32,028 nucleotides of DNA from Aquificota bacterium (GTDB taxonomy: Bacteria > Aquificota > Aquificia > Aquificales > QOAS01), in assembly GCA_013153315.1 (NCBI GenBank), contig JAADES010000004.1, forward strand, positions 1 to 32,028. Reading direction: 5' to 3'. The stretch's first letter is position 1. Every line of letters begins with the position of its first letter. A program made the translations under genes and the position numbers. Positions 1,612-6,666 of the stretch are shown here, in pieces. A model generated the notes under the pieces. That model made no database searches, was not told the DNA's origin, and saw only the letters and a list, made by a program, of their open reading frames with translations.

Positions 1612-4600
1612 ATGAGTGAAAAAACTGTAAAAACCCAAAAGGAAAAGGCGATATTTGAAAAAACTTGCCCCAACTGCGGAGGCCCGATTAGCGATATAAG
1701 ACTCCAAAAGGGATTACCTTGCTCCAAGTGTCTACCCCAACAAGTAGAAAATGAAGATAAAGCTTGCGAGGTATTACTCAAAGAAAATAAACTCAATAAG
1801 GACTTTAAAGAAATATGCACCCTAAAGGAGGAATTAGAAAAATTTAGAAACTTCTTTTTTGAAATACACCGTTCCTATCCTTGGAGTTTGCAGGAAGCTT
1901 GGTTTAAAAGGTTTTTCCTCGGAAGGAGTTTTGCCCTTCTTGCCCCCACCGGGATAGGAAAAACCACCTTCGGACTTACCTTGAGCTATTACCTCGCCAA
2001 GAAAAAAAACAAAAAGAGTTATCTTATATTCCCCACACGGCTTTTGGTGGAACAGGCGATAAACAAACTCCGCAAAATGGGCGTTCCCGAAGAATACCTC
2101 CTTTATTTTGGTGAAAAGCCATCTCTGACCAAAAAACAAAAAGAAGAAAGATTTAGAAGATTGGAGGAAGGCGATTTCCGAATTCTAATAACAACCTCGA
2201 TGTTTCTATATCGGAACATAGATAAAATCCCCAAAGGGGTTTACGAGCTAATATTTGTCGACGATGTTGATAGTTTCCTTAAAACGGCCAAAAACATCGA
2301 CAAAGCCCTTTACTTGTTGGGCTTTACCGAAAAAGAGATTGAATGGGCCTTAAAAATTATAAAACTCCGCAAAGAGCTGGCCCAAAAACCCAATGTTAGC
2401 CCCGAAGAATGGGAAAAACTTAAAAAAGAAGAAGAAAAATTAAAGAAACATGCCGAAAAAGTTAGGAAGGGTGTTCTCATAGTGTCGTCGGCCACCTCCA
2501 ACCCCCGTAGCGAGAGGATTAAACTTTTTAGAGAACTTCTCGGTTTTGAGGTCGGTCGTCCGCTTTTTTACCTCAGAAATGTGGTCGATAGTTACGAGGA
2601 TAAATTCCTACAAGGAAAAAAATCTCTTACCGACCACAAACCTTTATGGGACTTTGTTGCCGATTTTGTTAAACAGCACCCCAAAGGGGGACTTATATAC
2701 ATTTCCCAAGATAGGGGTAAGGAAGAAGTTGACCGTTTGGTGGAATATCTAAATTCCAAAGGTCTCAATGTAAGGAGCTATGAAGAACTGGACAAACACC
2801 TAAAGGATTACGAAGAGGGAAAAGTTAACGCCTTTGTAGGTATAGCTTCCTATAGGAACCCCCTTGCACGGGGTTTCGATATGCCCCATGTGGTCAGATA
2901 TGCCCTATTTGTGGGTGTTCCCAAGCTCAAGTTTACCCTTAAGGTGGAAGAACATATTTCCCACATCCTTTGGGCTTTAGTTGCAATAAGACCCTTAATA
3001 GCCAAAGATAAGGAACTTCGCGAAAAGTATCTCCAAAAACTGGATAGATGGATAGAGAGGTTAAGAAAATATTCCTATCTCTCCGAGGAGTTTATCCAGC
3101 AGAACGAACGTCTTAAGGAGATTATTGAAAACATAAGAAACGAGGTAAGGGAATTTATAGAAAACCCCGAAATCCTCGAAAGGATAAAAGAAAGTGATGA
3201 AATAACCCTAAGGTGGGACGAAAAGGAAGGTTATTCCCTGATAGTGGCCGACGTTACAGGATACCTCCAAGCGTCGGGTAGAACCTCGAGACTTTACGCG
3301 GGAGGTTTAACAAAAGGTTTTTCCCTCGTATTGGTTGACGATACAAAAGCCTTCAACAACCTAAGGAAAAAAGTTAAATGGTTCAGCGAGGAAATTGAAT
3401 TTATCCCCCTCAAGGAGGTAGATTTAAAAACCCTCTTTGAGGAGATAGAAAAAGACAGGCAAAAGGTTCTAAGGTTTTTAAAAGGTGAAATTCCCGAAGA
3501 AGTTAAGGAGCTGATTAAACCTGTTTTGGTTATAGTGGAATCCCCCAATAAGGCTAGGACGATAGCAAACTTTTTCGGAAAACCGCTAAGGCGTAGGGTT
3601 GGCGATATAGACGTTTTGGAAGTTTCGCTCGGAGACAAGTTTTTAACCATAACCGCCTCGGCGGGACATGTTTACGACCTTATAAAGGAAAAGAAAAACT
3701 ATAGAAACACTTTCCACGGCGTTATAGTAGAGCCTTCGAAAGAAAATCCGGAGCATTTTATACCGATTTACGAGCCTATAAAACAGGAAACCCCCGAAGG
3801 GGAAATTAGAAATAAAGAGGAGATTATCAACTCCCTAAGGCAGGCGGGTCTTGAGGTTGCGGAGGTTTACATAGGAACCGACCCGGATAGCATAACGGGA
3901 GACAGTAAAGTCCTAGTAAAGGTAGATGGAAAAACAAAACACCTAACGGTGGAAGAGCTTTTTGAACTACTTAAGGAGGAATACAAAGTTGAACTCCGAA
4001 ACGGGCATGAATACATAAAACCGACCAACCTTTGGGTTCCCGTAGTTGACAAAAACTACCGCGTAAGGTTCGGTAAAGCAAAATACTTAATCCGCCACAA
4101 GGTTAAAAAACCTATCTACAAAATAACCACCCAAAGCGGAAGGGAGATAAAGATAACGGGAGACCACTCCATTTTTAGGCTCGATGAAAACCTAAACCTT
4201 GAGGAGGTAAAACCTACAGAGCTCCGAGAGGGGGACTTTATAGTTGTTAACGAAACCCTACCTTCGGAAGGAAAAAAGATAACCTTCGACCTTGCGGAGT
4301 ATAAAGAAGCTCTTCCCATAGCGGAGGTTAAAGATAAAACGGTAATCCTCAAAAGGACAAAAAAGGAAATTTCCCGCTTTGTGGAGCTCGACGAAGATTT
4401 AGCCACCTTCTTAGGTCTTTGGGTAGGCGACGGCTCTTACCACCAAGATAGATACGTAAGGATTTCCTGCCGAGATAGGGAGGTTTTGGAGCTTATAGAT
4501 AAACTCGGAGAAAGGTTTAAGTTCAATTACTCCCTCGACGGGGACGGAATTACAGTCGTTATCCACTCGAAGTTTTTGGCTGAATTTATGAAAAAAGTCC

Positions 4601-6666
4601 TCAAAGTGGAAGGAAAGGCTCACACCAAGAGGGTTCCCGAAATTATTTTCAACGCATCGAGGGAAATTATTTCCTCCTTCCTTAAAGGACTCTTTAGTGC
4701 GGACGGAACTGTCTCCAAAGGAGAAGCAAATTTAACAACTGTTTCGGAAAACCTTAAAGAGGACGTCGTTTCCCTTTTCCTAATGTTGGGAATAAATCCG
4801 AAAGTTTACAAAGAGGGTAATTTCTTCCGAATCTTCCTCCACGGGGAGGATACAGTCAAATTCTCCCAAAGGGTCGGCTTTCTCCAAAAACATAAAAGGG
4901 AAAAGCTCAATAAAACATTTAGCGGCAAGTCTTACACCAAACTTATAGCGTTCAACACCCTGCGCGGAAAGGTTCAATTCAAAAAAGGCATAAACTCCTA
5001 TGCGGAGGCTATATACCGCAAGGGTTATATGAGCAAGAATCGACTAAAAGAGTTCGTCGCTATGGACTTTGTCAAACCCTTCTTTAAGGCAAAACTCCAA
5101 AAGGTTCTAAACGGAGACATTTACACCGAACGGATTAAGAAGATAGAAAAACTCCCCTTGGAGGAACAATACGTTTACGACTTCGAAACCGAAACACAAA
5201 ACTTTATAGCCAACAACATCCTTTGTCACAACACAGAAGGAGAGAAAATCGCCTGGGACCTCTACGAGGTAATAAAACCCTACAACTCCAACATAAGGAG
5301 AATGGAATTTCACGAAGTCACCAAAAGGGCAATAGTAGAAGCAATCCACAACCCTAGGCAGATAGATATAAACCTCGTAGAGGCTCAAATGGTCAGAAGA
5401 ATAGCCGACCGTTGGGTGGGATTTGAACTTTCAAGACTCCTTCAGGAGCACTTTAAAAAACCCTGGCTGAGTGCGGGAAGGGTTCAAACTCCCGTACTCG
5501 GTTGGGTCATAGAGAGGGACAAACTATATAGAACCAAAAAAGGGGCAGTATTTGTATATCTACCTAACCCTCAAAAGGACAAAAGAAGAATTTCCGTAAG
5601 TTGGGAATTTGAAGACAAAAAACTTGCGAGGGAATTTTATAAAAACCTTACAGAGGTAGAAGTTAAGATTCTCCAAAATAGGGAAGAGGAGAAAAAACCC
5701 GCCCCGCCCTTTACCACCGATGTAATGCTCAAGGAAGCGAGCGACAAGCTCCGCTTTAGTGCAAGCAAAACTATGCAATTGGCTCAAGAGCTGTTTGAGG
5801 CCGGGCTGTCGACGTACCACCGCACAGACAGCACCCGAGTTTCCGATGTGGGAATCTCAATAGCGAGGGAATACATAGATGAAAACTTCGGACAGGATTA
5901 CTTCTACCCCAGGCATTGGGGAGAAGGCGGAGCCCACGAGTGTATAAGACCCACCCACCCTTGGGACGTTGAAGAACTCCGTTCGATGATGCTCGCAGGT
6001 CAGCTAAAAGGACTGACCAAAGACCACCTAAGGTTATACGAGCTAATTTTCAAACGCTTTATGGCTTCCCAAATGAGACCCGCCACCGTAGAGGTTTCCA
6101 AATTTGAAGTGAAACCCTTATTGGAGAAAAAAGACCTTCCGACCCAATCGGTGGAAAAAGAGGAAATAACTTCCCTCTTGAGGGACGGATTTAACTTAAT
6201 GACACCTATAGAAGTCTACTACCTGAAAGAGGGAACCTTTAAGGTAGTGGAGCAAAAAGATTTAACCGACGAGGAAGGTAACAAAATCGGGGAACACTCC
6301 GAAAGTGCTATGAAAATTTACAAACTCGTTCCGTTGGCTTACCCCTACACCCAAGGAAGTTTGATTGAAGAAATGAAAAAACGCGGTATAGGAAGACCTT
6401 CAACCTACGCCCAAATAGTTCAAAAGCTGTTGGATAGAGGTTATGTCATAGAGAGGAAGAATTTCTTATTCCCCACCAAGTTAGGTAAGGAGGTTTACAA
6501 CTACCTAATTAGGTTGAAAGAGGCAGAAAAATTCGTTAAGGAGGAGTTTACGAGAATACTTGAGGAGCTAATGGATAGGATTGAGAGGGGCGAGGTTTAC
6601 TACATAGAGGTTCTTAAGGATTTGTATGAAGAAGTTTTAAGACTTGAAAAGCTAAAAACAACTTAA
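1612..6666 (+). CDS. rgy: Reverse gyrase (helicase plus topoisomerase IA), intein-containing precursor
   Basis: N-terminal zinc finger CPNCGGPISDIRLQKGLPCSKC, Walker A APTGIGKTT, DDVD box, TOPRIM start VIVESPNKARTIANFFG, TOPRIM DPD/TEGEKIAWD (split by intein), topo IA catalytic region TYHRTDSTRVS, GGAHECIRPTHP. Confidence 0.97.
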   Translation: MSEKTVKTQKEKAIFEKTCPNCGGPISDIRLQKGLPCSKCLPQQVENEDKACEVLLKENKLNKDFKEICTLKEELEKFRNFFFEIHRSYPWSLQEAWFKRFFLGRSFALLAPTGIGKTTFGLTLSYYLAKKKNKKSYLIFPTRLLVEQAINKLRKMGVPEEYLLYFGEKPSLTKKQKEERFRRLEEGDFRILITTSMFLYRNIDKIPKGVYELIFVDDVDSFLKTAKNIDKALYLLGFTEKEIEWALKIIKLRKELAQKPNVSPEEWEKLKKEEEKLKKHAEKVRKGVLIVSSATSNPRSERIKLFRELLGFEVGRPLFYLRNVVDSYEDKFLQGKKSLTDHKPLWDFVADFVKQHPKGGLIYISQDRGKEEVDRLVEYLNSKGLNVRSYEELDKHLKDYEEGKVNAFVGIASYRNPLARGFDMPHVVRYALFVGVPKLKFTLKVEEHISHILWALVAIRPLIAKDKELREKYLQKLDRWIERLRKYSYLSEEFIQQNERLKEIIENIRNEVREFIENPEILERIKESDEITLRWDEKEGYSLIVADVTGYLQASGRTSRLYAGGLTKGFSLVLVDDTKAFNNLRKKVKWFSEEIEFIPLKEVDLKTLFEEIEKDRQKVLRFLKGEIPEEVKELIKPVLVIVESPNKARTIANFFGKPLRRRVGDIDVLEVSLGDKFLTITASAGHVYDLIKEKKNYRNTFHGVIVEPSKENPEHFIPIYEPIKQETPEGEIRNKEEIINSLRQAGLEVAEVYIGTDPDSITGDSKVLVKVDGKTKHLTVEELFELLKEEYKVELRNGHEYIKPTNLWVPVVDKNYRVRFGKAKYLIRHKVKKPIYKITTQSGREIKITGDHSIFRLDENLNLEEVKPTELREGDFIVVNETLPSEGKKITFDLAEYKEALPIAEVKDKTVILKRTKKEISRFVELDEDLATFLGLWVGDGSYHQDRYVRISCRDREVLELIDKLGERFKFNYSLDGDGITVVIHSKFLAEFMKKVLKVEGKAHTKRVPEIIFNASREIISSFLKGLFSADGTVSKGEANLTTVSENLKEDVVSLFLMLGINPKVYKEGNFFRIFLHGEDTVKFSQRVGFLQKHKREKLNKTFSGKSYTKLIAFNTLRGKVQFKKGINSYAEAIYRKGYMSKNRLKEFVAMDFVKPFFKAKLQKVLNGDIYTERIKKIEKLPLEEQYVYDFETETQNFIANNILCHNTEGEKIAWDLYEVIKPYNSNIRRMEFHEVTKRAIVEAIHNPRQIDINLVEAQMVRRIADRWVGFELSRLLQEHFKKPWLSAGRVQTPVLGWVIERDKLYRTKKGAVFVYLPNPQKDKRRISVSWEFEDKKLAREFYKNLTEVEVKILQNREEEKKPAPPFTTDVMLKEASDKLRFSASKTMQLAQELFEAGLSTYHRTDSTRVSDVGISIAREYIDENFGQDYFYPRHWGEGGAHECIRPTHPWDVEELRSMMLAGQLKGLTKDHLRLYELIFKRFMASQMRPATVEVSKFEVKPLLEKKDLPTQSVEKEEITSLLRDGFNLMTPIEVYYLKEGTFKVVEQKDLTDEEGNKIGEHSESAMKIYKLVPLAYPYTQGSLIEEMKKRGIGRPSTYAQIVQKLLDRGYVIERKNFLFPTKLGKEVYNYLIRLKEAEKFVKEEFTRILEELMDRIERGEVYYIEVLKDLYEEVLRLEKLKTT
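3889..5232 (+). other. In-frame intein (about 448 aa) with LAGLIDADG/DOD homing endonuclease
   Basis: Extein IGTDPD / intein SITGDSKVLVKVDGK...IKITGDHSIF...LATFLGLWVGDGSYH...IISSFLKGLFSADGTV...VYDFETETQNFIANNILCHN / extein TEGEKIAWD. N-terminal Ser, TxxH (TGDH) block B, two DOD motifs, C-terminal His-Asn and +1 Thr. Confidence 0.95.

Follow-up and report, generated by a model that had tools for sequence, protein, structure and literature searches.

An apparently intact class 1 homing intein in the TOPRIM motif of reverse gyrase from an uncultured Aquificales bacterium, and the state of the same site among its relatives

As a rule, inteins of the class considered here excise themselves from the host protein by means of a HINT domain and are copied into empty alleles by means of an endonuclease. 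Reverse gyrase is the hallmark enzyme of hyperthermophiles, and archaeal reverse gyrases carry inteins (r-Gyr in InBase). The homing-cycle model describes invasion of a site, decay and deletion of the endonuclease, and persistence as a splicing-only element, and a dead endonuclease comparable to one described below has been reported for PhoVMA (PMC8966425). Inteins at TOPRIM active sites have already been reported in mycobacteriophages (PMC5050341). The R2 ribonucleotide reductase intein of Aquifex aeolicus also lies between two metal ligands, and the protein obtained from an intein-bearing construct was twice as active and had more of its iron sites filled (PMC8772380).

We have analysed a stretch of 32,028 nucleotides from an uncultured Aquificales bacterium (contig JAADES010000004.1, positions 1 to 32,028; hereafter the window), which contains a reverse gyrase gene (rgy) interrupted by an intein. 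The coordinates of the features are listed in Table 1. The rgy frame of 1684 codons is single and uninterrupted, and it matches the TIGR01054 reverse gyrase model with 1336.6 bits, against a cut-off of 471.7. A helicase-like domain is fused to a type IA topoisomerase with TOPRIM and the catalytic Tyr, and the C-terminal half of the frame aligns to the solved reverse gyrase of A. fulgidus. The gene content of the window (the end of SbcC, undecaprenyl diphosphate synthase, FliF, ThiC, IF-2, a PcrA-like helicase, TsaE, P-II and others) is bacterial, and the contig carrying rgy is that of a bacterium of the Aquificales. Another member of the order, represented by a complete genome, has a reverse gyrase remnant interrupted by two in-frame stops (G025:C1:221088-221360, L095), which suggests that the rgy gene has been lost there.

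Table 1. Features of the interrupted rgy gene; positions are those of the window.
Feature	Position	Strand	Evidence
Reverse gyrase gene (rgy), 1684-aa precursor	1612..6666	+	TIGR01054; Pfam zf_Rg, DEAD, Toprim, Topoisom_bac
N-extein: zinc finger, helicase-like domain, N-terminal part of TOPRIM; C-end GTDPD (Asp759)	1612..3888	+	
Intein, 448 aa, Ser1 to His-Asn	3889..5232	+	PF14890 (Intein_splicing) 97.5 bits, E 8.6e-28; TIGR01445 intein_Nterm 42.2 bits; identical junctions in G002, G001, G004, G113
N-terminal splicing (HINT) part, Ser1 to about residue 125, with block B TGDH at residues 92-95	3889..4263	+	PF14890; alignment with relatives; aligns to solved inteins 2cw7, 7qsu, 5o9i
First LAGLIDADG repeat with GLWVGDGS	4393..4545	+	PF14528 match; motif gone in G112
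Second LAGLIDADG repeat with GLFSADGT	4669..4878	+	PF14528 match; motif degraded in G112
Segment between endonuclease core and C-terminal splicing block, mostly missing from mini-inteins	4900..5113	+	Alignment with relatives
C-terminal splicing block ending YVYDFETETQNFIANNILCHN	5125..5232	+	PF14890 C-terminal end; kept in G001, G002, G004, G113
C-extein: Thr+1, TEGE, topoisomerase domain, catalytic-Tyr motif STYHRTDS	5233..6666	+	Topoisom_bac 306.7 bits; aligns to A. fulgidus reverse gyrase 1gku/1gl9

The intein corresponds to Ser760-Asn1207 of the precursor and interrupts the TOPRIM DxDxE motif in frame, after the second Asp and before the Thr (DPD/TEGE). When it is removed in silico, a protein of 1236 aa is obtained with the continuous motif YIGTDPDTEGEKIAWD, matching the intein-less relatives. 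Besides the splicing profile, LAGLIDADG_3 (PF14528) matches the insert twice (54.5 bits) and Hom_end matches it at 21.8 bits (cut-off 21.1). The nucleophile of class 1 inteins, Ser1 (3889-3891), is invariant across the six copies found; the block B motif TxxH is TGDH in the window's genus and TVDH in a second family; and the C-terminus is ILCHN/T in the five copies in which it is present, the remaining copy (G112) ending at a contig end. Both DOD motifs are intact in the window's copy. The G+C content of the intein (42.1%) is equal to that of the extein (42.2%) within 0.1%. The AlphaFold prediction for a stretch of 640 residues of the precursor had a mean pLDDT of 43, with too few sequences behind it. 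No Pfam profile matches the segment between the endonuclease core and the C-terminal splicing block, which may tentatively be regarded as an accessory DNA-binding domain. Since the same junctions are found in independent genomes, neither chance nor misassembly accounts for the insert, which is apparently a class 1 intein with an intact-looking LAGLIDADG (DOD) endonuclease. The original prediction had placed an intein at exactly these coordinates of a bacterial reverse gyrase, dividing the TOPRIM acidic motif and carrying Ser1, TxxH, the penultimate His, the terminal Asn, Thr at +1 and both endonuclease motifs; the domain matches and relatives agree with it at each of these points, including the intact look of the splicing domain and the endonuclease.

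The DPD/TEGE site is occupied in six genomes from two families of the class. The window's genus was sampled by seven genomes, and the site is filled in all four that show it (G000, which is the window's genome, G001, G002 and G004); the contig of G005 stops short of the site, and no reverse gyrase was found in the G003 and G006 assemblies. G000 and G002 have the full intein of 448 aa, with 84% identity, and G001 and G004 have mini-inteins without the endonuclease (182 and 190 aa, respectively). In the second family, G113 has a full intein (58% identical) with the same junction and both endonuclease motifs intact. The intein of G112 (46-48% identical; L074 3-998) is cut by the contig end and still in frame, and there GLWVGDGS is changed to GLWIKKGF and GLFSADGT to GIFESD--, with a LAGLIDADG score of 20.9, which is under the cut-off; judging from these motifs, it is a decaying copy with a dead endonuclease. 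In the other 49 rgy sequences read, from three other families of the class, the site is empty in every case (DPDTEGE in 44, DPDAEGE in 4 and DPDSEGE in 1). The intein-less genes with Ala or Ser at the would-be +1 Thr are at L033-L035, L118 and L127, and Ala at this position would not support splicing at the site.

Two observations on the genus were made in the course of this survey. A public MAG record titled Gammaproteobacteria (QOAS01000045.1, L068) has an Aquificales-type reverse gyrase; since its genome belongs to the window's genus, the record is probably mislabelled. Further inteins are present in G000 (G000:C1, C46, C3, C56 and C19) in a UDP-glucose dehydrogenase-like protein, DnaE, GyrA and RtcB, with intein loci noted at L001, L003, L005, L054 and L059, and relatives also have a UvrB intein; the genus is intein-rich.

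We assign a probability of about 0.92 to the reading that this is a canonical class 1 homing intein of rgy, which splices itself out, spreads by endonuclease homing, and has later suffered decay or deletion of the endonuclease in other lineages. We infer splicing, cleavage and restoration of reverse gyrase activity as follows. The single full-length rgy of this bacterium, as the host of the intein, would be translated over its entire frame, and the HINT domain would excise itself through an N-O shift at Ser1, transesterification to Thr+1, Asn cyclisation and an O-N shift. Ligation of Asp759 and Thr1208 would recreate DPDTEGE and, with it, the TOPRIM metal site. In rgy alleles that lack the intein, the joined DPD/TEGE codons are probably the target of the endonuclease, and repair of the cut would then copy the element in. 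Elsewhere the endonuclease would have decayed (G112) or been deleted (G001 and G004), with splicing retained. The co-occurrence of full, dead-endonuclease, endonuclease-less and empty alleles at one site appears to match the classical homing cycle. Substitution rates seem to agree with this cycle: the endonuclease appears strongly constrained between G000 and G002 (pN 0.097 and pS 0.776 in the endonuclease region, synonymous change being saturated) and relaxed between G112 and G113, where dN/dS is about 0.41 in the endonuclease (dN 0.328, dS 0.80) against about 0.13 in the splicing domain (dN 0.175, dS 1.32).

A comparison of intein and extein divergence gave the same distance for both inside the genus (0.185 each, LG+G4). 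Between G001 and G002, dS is 0.42-0.56 in the extein and 0.44-0.47 in the splicing domain. Since the two parts have diverged equally and these dS values agree, the intein was inherited along with rgy in the genus, mainly vertically; and since G+C content is also equal, nothing points to recent mobility. Both mini-inteins (L069 5022-5567 and L070 4355-4924) share GR[KQ]IGDI at the deletion junction, a motif that full-length copies lack. A single deletion would explain this common motif better, and one origin for both mini-inteins was considered on this ground but is the less favored reading: exteins and splicing domains group G001 with G002. With this grouping two deletions are simpler, and the genus has probably seen no fewer than two deletions of the endonuclease.

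The distance between the two intein-bearing families is 0.89 for the intein (interval 0.74-1.06) and 1.50 for the extein (1.32-1.74), and the ratio of between-family to within-genus distance is 4.8 for the intein, against 8.1 for the extein. This lower divergence was considered as proof of transfer between the families and then dropped as evidence, since control genes from the window are spread over the same range (UvrD 3.4, FliF 4.4 and IF-2 6.6) and enclose the intein's value. Near the site, where both families have KIAWD, no excess similarity pointing to co-conversion of the flanks was found. A deep split in the extein tree separates the two intein-bearing families, each of which has intein-less families as neighbors, with long branches meeting at this split and deep joins uncertain. 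Either an old transfer between the families or ancestral presence followed by losses is possible. For the latter, in which the intein was already in the ancestor of the class, was lost in three other families and never passed between the two that keep it, we see a serious chance that falls somewhat short of even. The ordinary value of the intein's ratio, the deep split of the exteins and the flanks without co-conversion are in its favor, while it requires the intein to have been lost twice or more from conserved TOPRIM codons and has to accommodate an intein that has diverged less than its own extein between the families.

For the window's species itself, the intein might splice with an inactive endonuclease and be merely inherited. 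The equal divergence of intein and extein within the genus, their matching G+C content and the two relatives already without the endonuclease speak for this. On the other hand, strong purifying selection appears to have preserved the endonuclease between G000 and G002, its body as well as both acidic motifs, and a decayed copy looks different, as G112 shows. We consider mere inheritance rather unlikely, and favor a homing intein with a working endonuclease.

The original prediction had further proposed homing across domains. As stated this is unsupported, since all close relatives found belong to the same bacterial phylum and the intein tracks its extein in the genus. That these bacteria received the intein from archaea by homing is in our view doubtful, though not far-fetched. 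Archaeal inteins (PkoII, TliVMA and MvuTFIIB) make up most of its nearest solved or profiled relatives, the best whole-intein match in NCBIfam is PRK14898 (143.7 bits over the intein), a model of an intein-bearing archaeal-type RNA polymerase A'', identity is only 29% in the best long-span match within the phylum to an intein inserted elsewhere, and the intein is patchy across the phylum. However, solved inteins are a biased sample, mostly archaeal, and the comparison set contained no archaeal rgy intein; because of this the archaeal similarity is suggestive only. The presence of the intein in the genus also goes back at least to the divergence of the species there. Our literature search gave neither a list nor an insertion site for archaeal reverse gyrase inteins, and the patterns used in a scan of genome contigs retrieve the window's genus only. 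When viral contigs, plasmids and phages were searched as carriers, close relatives of the intein were not found, and PHROGs gave a weak match only.

That the unspliced precursor lacks an assembled metal site, as the original prediction had it, is conjectural. The ends of a HINT domain lie near each other. With the R2 intein, which likewise parts two metal ligands, the intein-bearing construct gave more metal, not less (PMC8772380). By analogy with that intein one may speculate, at long odds, that heat or metal governs splicing at DxD/xE, the intein thereby timing reverse gyrase activity or helping metal loading. If true, conditional splicing could account for the persistence of splicing-only mini-inteins in two species. 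That the insert does not splice at all, the gene being a pseudogene or yielding two separate products, is very improbable, since the splicing residues are invariant in all copies showing both ends, the 1684 codons are open and the exteins are conserved. Related species with full, dead-endonuclease, endonuclease-less and empty alleles form a compact natural series for tests of the homing cycle and of possible heat-dependent splicing, and the thermophilic mini-inteins, with Ser1 and Thr+1, may serve as splicing tools.

Among known systems, the archaeal r-Gyr inteins of InBase share the host protein family with the rgy intein. In PI-PkoII and TliVMA/PhoVMA a HINT domain is likewise interrupted by a two-repeat LAGLIDADG endonuclease, and similarity to the solved structures (2cw7 and 7qss/7qsu) is detectable; these differ from the rgy intein in host protein, insertion site and archaeal hosts, and identity is low. 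The decay of the endonuclease in PhoVMA is parallel to that in G112 (PMC8966425). The R2 intein of Aquifex aeolicus resembles the rgy intein in having a LAGLIDADG endonuclease, in belonging to a hyperthermophilic member of the Aquificales and in interrupting an essential enzyme between two of its metal ligands (PMC8772380), but it is in another host gene, has 346 aa and interrupts a di-iron site instead of the TOPRIM metal site. The mycobacteriophage inteins likewise interrupt a TOPRIM protein at its active site (PMC5050341), but this protein is a phage topoisomerase-primase, and the likeness is at the level of the active site. Since an intein between metal ligands and inteins at TOPRIM active sites have thus been described, the rgy intein belongs to a known type, and its standing as a genuine new case of this well-known type of mobile element is well supported.
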